This document shows positions 37,239 to 63,252 of a stretch of DNA of 64,000 bases, one piece after another. Under the pieces are notes generated by a model that saw only the letters and a list, made by a program, of their open reading frames with translations, had not been told where the DNA came from and ran no database searches. Made by a program: the position numbers and the translations under genes. This DNA is from Synechococcus sp. UW69 (GTDB lineage: Bacteria > Cyanobacteriota > Cyanobacteriia > PCC-6307 > Cyanobiaceae): assembly GCF_900474185.1 (NCBI RefSeq), contig NZ_UCNW01000008.1, positions 1-64,000 of the forward strand, given 5' to 3'. The stretch's first letter is position 1. Every line of letters begins with the position of its first letter.

Positions 37239-39269
37239 TTGAGCAACTCCATCCAACCCGGAGACACCGTCGCGGTTGTTCTCAAGGGTTCCCCACTCAT
37301 CGGCCGTCTTCTGTCCATCAAGGGCAGCAAGGCGGTTGTTTCTTTTGGCGGTCAACGTCGGGATCAGGGCCTCCCCCTGCGAGACCTGATTGCTATCGAT
37401 CCGGAGCATCTTTTCGATAACAGCGTTCTGCCCGCCCCCGAGCAGGTGCAGGACAGCGCCCCATCAGCCCGGGCTGTTGTCGAGGCCTGGCAGCTGTTGG
37501 AAACGGATCAACCGGGGGGAATGGCTCGACTCAGCCTCTGCGAACTGGGAGAGCTTGTACTAACACCCCTCAACCTCGAAGGTTTGGCAGCACTGTGGAG
37601 CTGGGTGCAGGGGTCCCAGCAGTTGTTCCGCTGGCGTCGAGACCGCTTGCTCCAACCGCTGACCCTCGAGGAGCGTGCCAGCCAGCGGCGCCAGCGCCGT
37701 TCTGAGCGCCAAGCGCAAAGGAAGGAAGAACGGCAGCTCGAGTTGCTCCGAACGGAGCGCAGTCTCACAACCGATGAACAAGCCGAGCTGGGGCAGATCT
37801 GGATCGAGCGCTTCAGCCATTGGATTCAGTTGCTGAAAGAGAATCCTGCGTCAGTCGGCTCAGACCTCGAGCTTCAGCAATGGTCTATCCCGTTGTCGAT
37901 TGGGTCGGACGCCGCCGATCTGCGGCACTGGTTGATCGTGCGTGGATTGCTCGATCCCAATCAACCGATCGCCCTGAGAGGCAGCGTCTGGTCCCGCAGC
38001 TTTCCCACCGACCTGGAGGCGGAAGCGGAACGTCTCGTTGCGCTCTCTGATGAGGAGCAACCGGGGGATGAGCAACGCATCGACCTCACCCACCTGGCGA
38101 CCTACAGCCTTGACGATGCGGGCACCCGTGAAATTGATGATGCGCTGTCGCTCGAGCGGCGAGATGGATGCGATTGGATCTGGATCCATATCGCTGATCC
38201 CAGTCGTCTCATTGGTGCCGACTCTCCACTCGATCTGGAGGCCCGACGACGGGCAACCAGTCTCTACCTCGCCGATGGGGTCATGCCGATGCTGCCCCTC
38301 GTGTTGGCAGCTGGCCCCCTCAGCCTTCGTGCCGGTCAGCGATGCGCTGCACTGAGTGTCGCCGTCAGGCTTGGGGACGATGGTGCGGTGGTAGAGCACC
38401 GCATTGCGCGCAGCTGGATTCGACCCCGCTACGGACTGACCTATGCCGACGGTGATGAGCTCATCGATTTGGCCCCCCCTGGCGATGAGGCTCTCTCGGA
38501 TCTGTCTCGACTGTTGCTGCAGCGAATGCGCTGGCGTCGCTCCAACGGGGCTGTGATGTTTGACCGGCCGGAAGGACGCTTTCGCCGCTGCGATGAATCG
38601 CTGACACTGCAGGTGATTGACCCGTCACCCTCCCGCTTGATGGTGAGTGAAGCGATGCTTCTGATGGGGGCAGTTGTGGCCAGCTTTGGGCAACAGCACG
38701 ATCTCCCGCTCCCCTACCGCAGTCAACCTGCAGCGGAGTTGCCCTCCAGCGATGAACTCGATCGGATCCCAGAGGGTCCAGCACGCGATGCGGCGATCAA
38801 GCGTTGCTTGAGTCGCGGCGTACAGGGCACGCGACCGATGCCCCATTTCAGCCTCGGATTGGCCGCCTATGTGCAGGCGACATCACCGATCCGTCGTTAC
38901 GCAGATCTCGTGACCCACCGGCAGATTCTTGCGCAGCTCTCTGCTGTTCAACCGATGGGGGAGGAGCGTCTTGGTGAACTGATCGACGATCTCGACGACC
39001 CTCTGCGCCAATCCATTCAGATCAGTCGAGAGGATCAACGCCACTGGCAACAGGTGTGGTTCGCCGAGCGTCAAAGCACCGTTTGGTCAGCAGAATTCCT
39101 GCGTTGGTTGCGCCCCCAGGATCGATTGGCCCTGGTTCATGTCAGCGACCTGGCGATGGATCTGGTGGGATGTGTCGCCTCCACAGACCCAGCTCCAGGC
39201 GACACTCTGGAGCTCAGGGTGGGTTGTGCTGATCCCGTGCGTGGGGAGTTGCAGCTTCTAATCGGTTAA
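37239..39269 (+). CDS. ribonuclease II/R-family exoribonuclease (active-site residues present)
   Basis: 676 residues. A non-standard N-terminal part with a Gln/Arg/Glu-rich coiled stretch (145-175), then the RNB domain. The metal-binding set is retained as LDDAGTREIDDAL (Asp292, Glu298, Asp300, Asp301), and TSPIRRYADL (548-557) is intact. A short S1-like region ends the protein. Degrades RNA 3' to 5'; this is the likely catalytic RNase II of the organism. TTG start at 37239, ten bases after rpsR. The last four bases overlap the convergent oxidoreductase gene. Compare with the degenerate relative at 60319. Confidence 0.9.
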   Translation: MSNSIQPGDTVAVVLKGSPLIGRLLSIKGSKAVVSFGGQRRDQGLPLRDLIAIDPEHLFDNSVLPAPEQVQDSAPSARAVVEAWQLLETDQPGGMARLSLCELGELVLTPLNLEGLAALWSWVQGSQQLFRWRRDRLLQPLTLEERASQRRQRRSERQAQRKEERQLELLRTERSLTTDEQAELGQIWIERFSHWIQLLKENPASVGSDLELQQWSIPLSIGSDAADLRHWLIVRGLLDPNQPIALRGSVWSRSFPTDLEAEAERLVALSDEEQPGDEQRIDLTHLATYSLDDAGTREIDDALSLERRDGCDWIWIHIADPSRLIGADSPLDLEARRRATSLYLADGVMPMLPLVLAAGPLSLRAGQRCAALSVAVRLGDDGAVVEHRIARSWIRPRYGLTYADGDELIDLAPPGDEALSDLSRLLLQRMRWRRSNGAVMFDRPEGRFRRCDESLTLQVIDPSPSRLMVSEAMLLMGAVVASFGQQHDLPLPYRSQPAAELPSSDELDRIPEGPARDAAIKRCLSRGVQGTRPMPHFSLGLAAYVQATSPIRRYADLVTHRQILAQLSAVQPMGEERLGELIDDLDDPLRQSIQISREDQRHWQQVWFAERQSTVWSAEFLRWLRPQDRLALVHVSDLAMDLVGCVASTDPAPGDTLELRVGCADPVRGELQLLIG

Positions 39270-59201: not shown

Positions 59202-59576
59202 ATGACCAGAGAGAAGCTTCAGTGGACCTGCATCAAGCACTGCGGTGCCTGTTGTCGACTCGCTCCGGAGGAACGTGCTGATGCTCTAGCGGCTTTGAGC
59301 GAAGATCAACAGCGCACCTATCTAGCCATGGTGGGGGCAGATGGCTGGTGCATCAATTACGACACGGGCAGGCAGCGCTGCAGGATCTACGACGAGCGTC
59401 CTGATTTCTGCCGCGTCAGCGAGCTGGGGCGGTTGTTTCACGTTCCAGATGATGCACTCGACGACTTCGCCATTGCCTGTTGCAACCAGCAGATCCGCAG
59501 CACCTATGGCGGCCGCAGTGGCGTGATGCGTAGGTTCAAGCGCGCGCAGACAGCGGGAGGTCCTGTTGACCAGTGA
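59202..59576 (+). CDS. YkgJ-type cysteine cluster protein
   Basis: 124 residues. The CIKHCGACCRLAPEE start, WCINYD, QRCRIYDERPDFCRV and AIACCNQQI form the eight-cysteine pattern of the YkgJ/CxxCxxCC family, thought to bind zinc or an Fe-S cluster. Function unknown. Its end overlaps the start of the first GDT1 half by about 11 bases, so this gene and the two transporters are likely cotranscribed. Confidence 0.85.
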   Translation: MTREKLQWTCIKHCGACCRLAPEERADALAALSEDQQRTYLAMVGADGWCINYDTGRQRCRIYDERPDFCRVSELGRLFHVPDDALDDFAIACCNQQIRSTYGGRSGVMRRFKRAQTAGGPVDQ

Positions 59577-59898
59577 GCAAACAAGCAGCGAGTCGCGGAG
59601 CTTCGCTGCCGTGCTGTTCAGCACCTTCACAACCGTTTTTGTGGCTGAACTGGGTGACAAGACGCAGCTGGCGACGCTGCTGCTCTCCGCCCAGTCCGGC
59701 TCACCGGTGTTGGTGTTCATCGGTGCCGCGCTGGCTTTGATTGCGTCCAGCCTTGTGGGAGTCCTCGTGGGTCAATGGTTGGCCAAAACGCTTCCTCCTG
59801 AGCGACTGGAGCTGATGGCTGGACTGCTGATGGTGGCCCTTGGCATCTGGCTGGGCCTGCAAGCCGCCCGATCTTTATGGCTAAGTGCTGCGAGTTGA
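59566..59898 (+). CDS. GDT1/TMEM165-family transporter, first half
   Basis: 110 residues with three hydrophobic segments. Carries the family motif ELGDKTQLATLLLSA (E-x-G-D-K-T). The family (UPF0016) exchanges Mn2+ or Ca2+ for protons; cyanobacterial homologues export manganese from the cytoplasm. Full-length members have two such halves; here each half is a separate gene, so a heterodimer is likely. TTG 59566 start, inside the YkgJ gene end. Needed in a PSII organism that must control manganese. Confidence 0.88.
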   Translation: MTSEQTSSESRSFAAVLFSTFTTVFVAELGDKTQLATLLLSAQSGSPVLVFIGAALALIASSLVGVLVGQWLAKTLPPERLELMAGLLMVALGIWLGLQAARSLWLSAAS

Positions 59899-59900
59899 CG

Positions 59901-60218
59901 ATGGATTTTCCCCTTCTGATTTCCACCTTCTTGACCGTGTTCTTGGCCGAACTCGGTGACAAGACCCAACTCGCCACCGTCGCCATCAGCGGCACTTCAA
60001 ATCGCCCTCTGGCGGTGTTTCTTGGATCATCATCAGCGCTTGTTCTCGCGAGCTTGCTTGGAGCATTTGCAGGAGGATCCGTCGCCACAGTGATTCCCAG
60101 CGACCTTCTCCAGTTGGTTGCTTCCATCGGTTTTCTCGTGATTGGTGGTCGCTTGCTGCTGCCTCTGTTCAGCGATGCTGAAAACTCCACAGACGGGGAT
60201 CAGACTTCAGAGCCTTAA
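59901..60218 (+). CDS. GDT1/TMEM165-family transporter, second half
   Basis: 105 residues, three hydrophobic segments, family motif ELGDKTQLATVAISG. Partner of the preceding gene, which ends two bases before this ATG. The two share the E-x-G-D-K-T motif but differ elsewhere, so they are old paralogues, not a recent split. The tail (DAENSTDGDQTSEP) is acidic and cytoplasmic in a typical topology. ATG 59901. Confidence 0.88.
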   Translation: MDFPLLISTFLTVFLAELGDKTQLATVAISGTSNRPLAVFLGSSSALVLASLLGAFAGGSVATVIPSDLLQLVASIGFLVIGGRLLLPLFSDAENSTDGDQTSEP

Positions 60219-60318: not shown

Positions 60319-62640
60319 ATGAAATTCACGGTTGCCGATCTGCTGGATCAGCTCTCTACAGAGCATCCTTCTGAACAAGACCAGCTGGCCAAGATCCTGA
60401 AGCTCAATAAGACGGATCAAGCGTCGCTGGAGCTTGCAATCGCCTCACTGGTGAAGCTCGGTGTCGTTGAACGATCGAGCGAGGGTGGACTCAAGCGCCC
60501 ACTTGAAAATGATCTGATTGATGCCCGACTGAGGTGCAGTAGCAAAGGGTTCTGCTTCGCCATTCGTGATGACGGCGGTGAGGACATCTACATCCGGGAT
60601 CATCAGCTCAACCATGCTTGGAATGGTGATCGCGTGTTGGTGCGTGTAACGCGCGAGGGCGGACGACGACGCTCTCCTGAAGGCGGCGTTCAGTGCATCC
60701 TTGAGCGTTCAACCCGCTCTCTGCTGGCCCAGGTGGAGCAACAGGGCCAGCAGCTACTGGCATCACCCCTTGATGACAGGGTGCTGGCTGGTATCGAACT
60801 GCCACCAGAGGATTCCGAACATCTACCTGGAGAAGAGGTCTCAAGCGTTGTCGAGGTGCACATTGACCGCTATCCCGTGGCCCAGAACGCTGCTGCCGGT
60901 CGTGTGGTGCGCTCCCTCCCGCTCAACGGCGGCCCTGCAGCGGATCGTGACCTCTTATTGACCAAGGCTGGGCTTCAAGATCGTCCGGCGGCACCCCGTA
61001 GTTCTGGCAAAACTCCTGCGGCGAAGGGCCGTGTCGATCTGACAGGACAACCCTGCCTCCTTCTCAAAGGCTGGAATCAGGAGGATGCACCGGGCTTGCC
61101 GGCAGTTCATGTTGAAGCCAAGGATGGCGGATGCCGTCTATGGATCCACGTTCCCAGCGTGGGCGAGCGAATCGGATTAGGCAGCAGCCTCGATGTTTGT
61201 CTGCGAGATCGCGGAGAAGCGCTTTGCCTCGGTGAGGTCTGGCACCCCCTGCTAACACCCGCGCTTCACAAAGCGACGAGCTTCGCCACCGGCACAGATG
61301 TCGAGGCCATCAGCGTGCGACTGGACATCGGAGCCAATGGTGAACTCTGCGACTGGGAGTTCATGCTCAGCACGGTTCGCCCCACAGCCGAAGTGAGCGC
61401 TGATCAATTGATCGCTCTGGCGGAACGCAAACCAAAGGCTCGAAGCATTCCGGCGGCACTTAAGCCCATCAAAGATCATTTGGCTCAACTGGAGACCTTG
61501 CGGTTCTGCAGCACTCTCCTGCTGGACTACGAGCGCAGCCTCGGGGCAGTGCAACTGGACCTACGCCCACCCCAGCTTGAGGCGCTTGGTGATCTACGCA
61601 GTGCGGATCCATCCGGTCTTCGTCATCGCTGGGTTGACGCCTTCAACCCGGAGGATCCCCATGCGTTCCTCCAACCTCTGCTGAGGTGTGCCGATCGTGC
61701 CTGGACTGCACACCGGATTGATCTCCAATTGCCCGGGATCAGCATTCAGGCTGAGGAACCCGATGGCAACGTCTTGACCGATGTTGCCAAGACGGCCATC
61801 GCCTTGGACCTCCCCCTTGAACTTGATGACGAGGGTTGTCCGTCAGCGTCTGAGCTGATCCAGGTGTTCAAAGACAGCAGCCAACGACGGGTGCTTGAAC
61901 AACAGCTCAGTCACGCGCTCCCTCCACTCAATTTTGCGGCGTCCACGGAGACGTCCCATGCAGAACAGGAGCCTTCCCCAGCAGAGGAAGGTGATCCAGC
62001 CAGCCATGACGCGTCACTCACCCCTTGGACCTGTGCCACACAGCATTACGGACACCTTGTCAATCAACAGATGCTCGTTGCACTGTTGACGGACGCCAAA
62101 GATCGTCCAACCGTGCGTCACAAGACGCGTTTGAAGCTTGGTTGCAAGGGAGCAGGCGCTGATCTGACTTGGCCCTTATTCACTGCATCTCAGGACGAGA
62201 AATTGAATGGGTTGGTCAACGACCGCACGGTGCAGCGGCTCAATTCGTGTCGCCGGCAGGTGCTGGAGCTGGAAAAAGATCTGCTGTCGATGATCCAGGC
62301 CCGATCAGCACAACCGCTGATCGGCCAGCAGGTGGAAGGCCGTATCAGTGGTGTTCAGAGCTATGGCTTCTTCGTTGAAGTGGGCGAGAGTCGGGTTGAG
62401 GGCCTGGTTCATGTGAGCTCCCTCAACGATGACTGGTACGAATACAGATCACGACAGAATCGATTGGTCGGTCGCAAGAACCGTCAGACCTATCAACTCG
62501 GCGATCAGGTTCAGGTGCGTGTGATCAATGTCGATGTTCTACGCAACCAGATCGATCTCGAGGTCATCAGTCAGGGCGATGAAGTCTCCACCGAGCTTGA
62601 ACCGTCTGAGCCGCTGCCTGTTTCCCTCAGCGAGCGCTGA
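60319..62640 (+). CDS. RNase II/R-family protein lacking catalytic residues (Zam-like)
   Basis: 773 residues: an N-terminal winged-helix-like part (1-55), a cold-shock-like domain (RCSSKGFCFAIRDDGGEDIYIRDH, 72-95), an RNB-like domain and a C-terminal S1 domain (PLIGQQVEGRISGVQSYGFFVEVG, from about 664). In RNB nucleases the D-x5-D-x-DD set binds metal. Here the aligned segment is KGWNQEDAPGLPAVHVEA (250-267): all four positions are changed. The TSPIRRYADL segment reads CATQHYGHL (572-580). It is probably an RNA-binding pseudo-enzyme. It may be the cyanobacterial Zam family linked with acetazolamide resistance; low certainty on that name. Confidence 0.85.
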   Translation: MKFTVADLLDQLSTEHPSEQDQLAKILKLNKTDQASLELAIASLVKLGVVERSSEGGLKRPLENDLIDARLRCSSKGFCFAIRDDGGEDIYIRDHQLNHAWNGDRVLVRVTREGGRRRSPEGGVQCILERSTRSLLAQVEQQGQQLLASPLDDRVLAGIELPPEDSEHLPGEEVSSVVEVHIDRYPVAQNAAAGRVVRSLPLNGGPAADRDLLLTKAGLQDRPAAPRSSGKTPAAKGRVDLTGQPCLLLKGWNQEDAPGLPAVHVEAKDGGCRLWIHVPSVGERIGLGSSLDVCLRDRGEALCLGEVWHPLLTPALHKATSFATGTDVEAISVRLDIGANGELCDWEFMLSTVRPTAEVSADQLIALAERKPKARSIPAALKPIKDHLAQLETLRFCSTLLLDYERSLGAVQLDLRPPQLEALGDLRSADPSGLRHRWVDAFNPEDPHAFLQPLLRCADRAWTAHRIDLQLPGISIQAEEPDGNVLTDVAKTAIALDLPLELDDEGCPSASELIQVFKDSSQRRVLEQQLSHALPPLNFAASTETSHAEQEPSPAEEGDPASHDASLTPWTCATQHYGHLVNQQMLVALLTDAKDRPTVRHKTRLKLGCKGAGADLTWPLFTASQDEKLNGLVNDRTVQRLNSCRRQVLELEKDLLSMIQARSAQPLIGQQVEGRISGVQSYGFFVEVGESRVEGLVHVSSLNDDWYEYRSRQNRLVGRKNRQTYQLGDQVQVRVINVDVLRNQIDLEVISQGDEVSTELEPSEPLPVSLSER

Positions 62641-63252
62641 GTGATGCATCCCTACGTTCTGGCCGTCACCGGTGCGTCGGCACAACCCCTTGCCGAGCGT
62701 GCCCTGCAGTTGCTTCTGCTGCGAGGGCGCTCTGTCCATCTCGTTCTCAGCCACGGCGCCCATGAGGTCTTCCGTGCCGAACAGGGGCTGTCCATTCCCG
62801 TGGATCCCCTGAAGCAAAACGAGTTCTGGAGAGACAGGCTTGGCGTGGAGAGCGGAGATTTGAGATGCCATCGCTGGAATGATCAAGCCGCCTGCATCGC
62901 GAGTGGCAGCTACCGGACACGGGCGATGGTGATCGTTCCTTGCAGCATGGGAACCGTTGGACGCATTCACGCCGGAATTGCCGCTGATCTGATCGAACGC
63001 TGTGCGGATGTTCACCTCAAGGAGCGCCGTCCGCTGGTGATCGCTCCACGGGAGATGCCCTTCAACCTGATTCACCTCCGCAACCTCACTGGTCTGGCGG
63101 AAGCAGGAGCAACCATTGCCGCTCCCATTCCGGCTTGGTACACCCGGCCAGAGTCGTTGAACGAGATGGTGGATTTTCTTGTGGTGCGCCTATTCGATGG
63201 GCTGGAAGATGATCTTGCTCCGTTGAATCGCTGGAGCGGTCCACTGGAATGA
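62641..63252 (+). CDS. ubiX: flavin prenyltransferase UbiX/Pad1
   Basis: 203 residues. VLAVTGASAQPLAERALQLLL near the N-terminus, VPCSMGTVGRIHAGIAADLIERCADVHLKERRPLVIAPREMPFNLIHLRNLTGLAEAGATIAAPIP is the UbiX core. Makes prenylated FMN for UbiD-type decarboxylases; in cyanobacteria it supports plastoquinone-type pathways. GTG 62641 follows the previous stop directly. Its stop overlaps the next start (ATGA). Confidence 0.93.
   Translation: MMHPYVLAVTGASAQPLAERALQLLLLRGRSVHLVLSHGAHEVFRAEQGLSIPVDPLKQNEFWRDRLGVESGDLRCHRWNDQAACIASGSYRTRAMVIVPCSMGTVGRIHAGIAADLIERCADVHLKERRPLVIAPREMPFNLIHLRNLTGLAEAGATIAAPIPAWYTRPESLNEMVDFLVVRLFDGLEDDLAPLNRWSGPLE

Follow-up and report, generated by a model that had tools for sequence, protein, structure and literature searches.

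An orthologue of the RNB-family pseudo-nuclease Zam in a marine Synechococcus, with a degenerate catalytic site and a conserved cysteine pair

Introduction

Zam was described by Thomas et al. in 2022 as a second RNB-family protein, present across cyanobacteria and with a degenerate active site (PMC9145284). It is the OB domains of Zam that are mainly conserved, and the L12 loop of CSD1 carries an invariant pair of redox cysteines, C73 and C79 (PMC9145284). In PCC 7002, the mobility of Zam was shown by gel shift to be redox-dependent, and C-to-S mutants were equivalent to a deletion (PMC9145284). No nuclease activity was seen for the protein, which is prone to aggregation, nor did purified PCC 7002 Zam show direct RNA binding (PMC9145284). 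Deletion of zam, reported for PCC 7002 and PCC 6803 only, leads to low phycocyanin and to acetazolamide tolerance (PMC9145284). In Anabaena, according to a review, the protein Alr1240 binds RNase E and stimulates its cleavage (PMC10989914).

The present report concerns the first 64,000 nucleotides of a contig from Synechococcus sp. UW69, hereafter "the window". From the sequence alone, the product of its gene at 60319-62640 had been predicted to be a retained, RNA-binding pseudo-nuclease. This view is supported here: it matches the published account of Zam (PMC9145284), the loss of the active site is common to 173 Zam sequences, and the gene is under purifying selection. The gene product is the marine Synechococcus orthologue of Zam. 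For Zam, the loss of the catalytic site, the redox cysteines and a proposed role have already been published, and the observation is therefore real but not new. The original prediction overlooked both that the family was known and that the cysteine pair in CSD1 is its most conserved feature.

Identity and domain layout of the window protein

The gene is an ATG-started open reading frame on the forward strand that runs without a break across 773 codons, as had been stated. Its product has an HTH-like N-terminus followed by CSD1, CSD2, RNB and S1 domains. The RNA-binding parts had been called intact, and this holds in Pfam, where OB_RNB (67.9 bits, residues 70-125), CSD2, RNB (118 bits, 238-591) and S1 (54 bits, 668-749) all exceed the curated cut-offs. 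The score against the RNase R equivalog of NCBIfam (TIGR02063) is 194.4 bits, below the cut-off of 597.85. Exactly two RNB genes exist in the genome, this one and that at 37239-39269, and both lie inside the window. The relevant features, all on the forward strand, are as follows.

60319-62640, +: zam orthologue, RNB-family pseudo-nuclease of 773 aa (open reading frame, Pfam, orthologues, tree, model pLDDT 91)
60514-60708, +: CSD1, residues 66-130, with the highest conservation of any domain (column conservation, omega, OB_RNB match)
60535-60555, +: redox cysteines C73 (60535-60537) and C79 (60553-60555) in the motif RCSSKGFCF (PCC 7002 numbering, alignment)
61030-62091, +: degenerate RNB domain, residues 238-591 (Pfam; RNase R fold in the model)
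61066-61101, +: dead catalytic loop with K250, P258, L260 and P261 (alignment)
62023-62061, +: lost SPIRRYxD site, now PWTCATQHYGHLV, residues 569-581 (alignment)
62320-62565, +: S1 RNA-binding domain, residues 668-749 (Pfam, column conservation, omega)
62641-63252, +: ubiX-family flavin prenyltransferase gene, directly 3' of zam (NCBIfam, gene order)
37239-39269, +: rnb, catalytically complete RNB paralogue, after rpmG-rpsR (Pfam RNB 228 bits; D-E-D-D and RRY intact)

The described Zam proteins (Sll1910 of Synechocystis PCC 6803 and A1543 of Synechococcus PCC 7002) resemble the window protein in domain order, in the degenerate RNB site, in C73 and C79 of the CSD1 L12 loop, in their presence as a single copy beside one catalytic Rnb, and in belonging to a clade apart from Rnb. 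They differ from it by sequence divergence only, the window species being placed on the picocyanobacterial branch. The HTH-CSD1-CSD2-RNB-S1 architecture and the fold are likewise common to E. coli RNase R (Rnr) and RNase II (Rnb), whereas the catalytic Asp residues and the RRY of those enzymes are absent from the window protein.

An AlphaFold2 model of the window protein, built on an 86-sequence alignment, reached a mean pLDDT of 91.2 and a pTM of 0.89. Its best PDB matches in Foldseek were RNase R (8cdu and 5xgu), and the yeast protein Ssd1 (7am1), an RNB-family RNA-binding pseudonuclease, appeared lower down. Ssd1 is eukaryotic and presumably lost catalysis independently of Zam; it is not known to have a redox pair in CSD1.

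Distribution, phylogeny and gene order

A Zam-profile match was found in every listed genome of the window's own class, and the listed genomes that lack one come from different classes within the phylum. Within the family, all 121 of 121 genomes gave a match, that of G321 being weak, probably through an assembly gap. A phylum-wide search for RNB-domain genes found none in any listed genome of family f31 or in most listed genomes of other classes. In a tree of 63 rows, computed by a quick method with the active-site columns excluded and with several long outgroup branches, Zam forms one clade apart from Rnb (SH-aLRT 99). Since E. coli RNase II and the sequences of other classes sit on long branches that meet, only the Zam clade, and not the position of RNase R, is used here.

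All 74 picocyanobacterial loci have ubiX directly 3' of zam, and the same arrangement occurs in families f2, f7, f15 and f29. Retention of this order in several distant cyanobacterial families suggests co-transcription of the two genes. Upstream, the window holds two overlapping half-size membrane-protein genes (59566-59898 and 59877-60218), each with an AELGDKTQLAT motif; by this motif they are UPF0016/GDT1-like, and the NCBIfam match, found for the first only, is weak. In 73 of the 74 loci, the second of them is the gene immediately before zam.

Gene order also bears on the Anabaena protein. The rnb gene follows rpmG-rpsR in f7 as well as in picocyanobacteria; here, f7 is assumed to be the Anabaena family, and alr1241 is assumed to be ubiX. 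On these assumptions Alr1240 is probably Zam: zam is followed by ubiX, rnb comes after rpmG-rpsR, and alr1240 is the first gene of the transcription unit alr1240-alr1242 (PMC10287535), in keeping with the published assignment (PMC9145284).

Loss of the catalytic site

In the alignment, the equivalents of E. coli RNase II Asp201, Asp207, Asp209 and Asp210 are Lys250, Pro258, Leu260 and Pro261 of the window protein. The replacement of all four aspartates by non-acidic residues was thus correctly foreseen, as were the two prolines and the leucine; the first residue had been given as tryptophan and is lysine, with W252 lying two residues beyond K250. The loss of the RRY motif was likewise read correctly, the place of SPIRRYxD being taken by PWTCATQHYGHLV.

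An alignment of homologues, proposed at the time as a check for shared loss, extends this picture to the family. None of the 173 aligned Zam sequences has all four Asp, and none has Asp at the D207 position. Among picocyanobacterial Zams all four ligands are replaced, with x-P-L-P in most, and x-x-E-N is the active-site pattern in many other Zam families. In three rows, L005 (f8), L006 (f23) and L007 (f5), D201, D209, D210 and the RRY are kept and D207 alone is missing; the Zam rows of these three families occupy short branches close to the base of the Zam clade. The simplest reading of the sequences is that catalysis would have been lost stepwise, with D207 going first. The Zams of f5, f8 and f23 are possible intermediates of this loss and, as such, candidates for residual activity.

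The retention of three Asp and the RRY in some Zams also lends itself to a different reading, in which Zam still acts as a nuclease, though weak or altered, by way of a rebuilt site with another metal arrangement. A review states, moreover, that Alr1240 degrades unstructured RNA (PMC10989914), whereas the Anabaena protein has been taken as Zam and considered inactive (PMC9145284); the two accounts conflict, and so either one of them is off or some Zams possess residual activity. Against such a nuclease stand the non-acidic ligands and missing RRY of the window protein, together with the pattern of conserved acidic residues. The latter were searched for a set that might rebuild the metal site, an outcome that the original prediction had itself raised, and none was found. 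The RNB columns with an acidic residue in at least 90% of picocyanobacterial Zams (D240, E283, D292, E300, D386, E392, D425, D482, D488, D497, E505, E512 and D592) either occur in active RNB enzymes too or lie dispersed along the domain, with none in the catalytic loop, and therefore no rebuilt metal site is seen. A rebuilt nuclease is accordingly very improbable. Judged by its sequence, the protein of this species is almost certainly unable to bind the catalytic magnesium ions and, for that reason, would not cut RNA.

Selection and conservation

Strong purifying selection on zam emerged from the dN/dS analysis, which had also been proposed as a check. By NG86, with relatives of 84-90% identity, omega is about 0.07-0.09 for the whole gene, 0.006-0.020 for CSD1, 0.010-0.044 for S1 and 0.088-0.122 for the RNB domain. 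With an omega of about 0.1, the dead RNB domain is therefore still under constraint, as would be expected of a scaffold. Across Zam, column conservation is 0.89 in CSD1, 0.78 in S1 and 0.56 in RNB, placing the OB domains far above the RNB domain; 35 of 65 CSD1 columns and 42 of 90 in the S1 region (661-750) are at least 95% conserved.

A degenerate active site could also mark zam as a decaying pseudogene, and in one relative from family f18, the G233 copy, the reading frame does shift near residue 230. On the evidence of selection and distribution we reject such decay, which is scarcely conceivable for a gene that has an open frame and so low a dN/dS, is present in essentially all genomes of the family and is maintained in a conserved order with ubiX.

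The cysteine pair

The window protein has its cysteines at residues 73 and 79, the same numbers as in the PCC 7002 pair. Among the 173 aligned Zam sequences, C73 is found in 172 and C79 in 171, with both present in 171. In the Zam of locus L193 (G278, f29), C79 is replaced by Gly and C73 is kept.

The Zams of f18 (L158 and L210 of G079; L159 and L211 of G233) read RFSRGSFWA in place of RCSSKGFCFA and possess neither cysteine. They also have a smaller RNB domain, and the G079 and G233 copies are 80-87% identical. The redox switch is therefore not indispensable everywhere. Family f18 is possibly the Gloeomargaritaceae (G233 perhaps being Gloeomargarita lithophora), a lineage near plastids. Plastids are without Zam (PMC9145284), and a connection between this absence and the cysteine-free f18 protein is a lead only.

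The catalytic paralogue

The gene at 37239-39269 had been called a catalytically complete paralogue, and its product indeed keeps the D-E-D-D active site and SPIRRYAD. In Pfam, beyond the RNB domain (228 bits), this Rnb gives an S1 match below threshold, and OB domains cannot be recognised in it. Prochlorococcus-type genomes have a shortened rnb of 398-452 aa, which follows rpsR directly and whose open reading frame opens with the RNB domain. With several more of the family's small genomes included, the range is 398-502 aa, and the products align with the window Rnb only from its residue 250-280 or so onward. At three loci read closely (L207, L208 and L209), the short rnb begins immediately behind rpsR, with no space for an N-terminal region, and the Asp and RRY site is kept. 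Zam, by comparison, is full length with every domain in the Prochlorococcus-type genomes examined.

So sparse an Rnb beside so complete a Zam could mean that the two act in trans, the CSD and S1 domains of Zam capturing RNA for Rnb to cut. This arrangement is unlikely: the literature examined gave no instance of Zam and Rnb interacting, whether physically or genetically, PCC 7002 can do without Zam but not without Rnb (PMC9145284), and purified Synechocystis Rnb degrades RNA alone (PMC3293843). It is similarly doubtful that, in the Prochlorococcus type, the work of RNase II is now shared by two proteins, one a bare RNB nuclease without its N-terminal region and the other a full-length, dead Zam that carries a redox switch along with the RNA-binding domains. 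If true, Zam in such a divided system would hand RNA over to Rnb and/or RNase E, and light would govern this step.

Proposed function

The best overall explanation, with a probability of roughly 0.75, is that Zam is an RNase-R-shaped dead nuclease acting through its OB-fold domains under redox control. CSD1, CSD2 and S1 would bind RNA and/or a partner protein such as RNase E. Conservation of the C73-C79 pair suggests that these cysteines, located in the RNA-contact loop of CSD1, may make binding dependent on the redox state of the cell, and the dead RNB domain may be kept as a folded scaffold that positions the OB domains. A role as competitor, suggested in the original prediction, found no support; in the published proposal, Zam works together with RNase E to regulate RNA turnover. 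The most likely effect, to which we would give even odds by analogy with the Anabaena relative, is that Zam tunes RNA turnover to the redox state of photosynthesis, probably by binding RNase E and stimulating it. Prochlorococcus, which is not known to have ordinary phycobilisomes, keeps Zam, and so the published effect on phycocyanin cannot account for all that the protein does.

Zam may thus link the photosynthetic redox state to RNA turnover, and it is for this reason that a clean marine Synechococcus case is useful. The graded loss of the active site, the cysteine-free Zam of f18 and the short Prochlorococcus-type Rnb constitute natural experiments by which redox control could be told apart from RNA binding and from residual catalysis.
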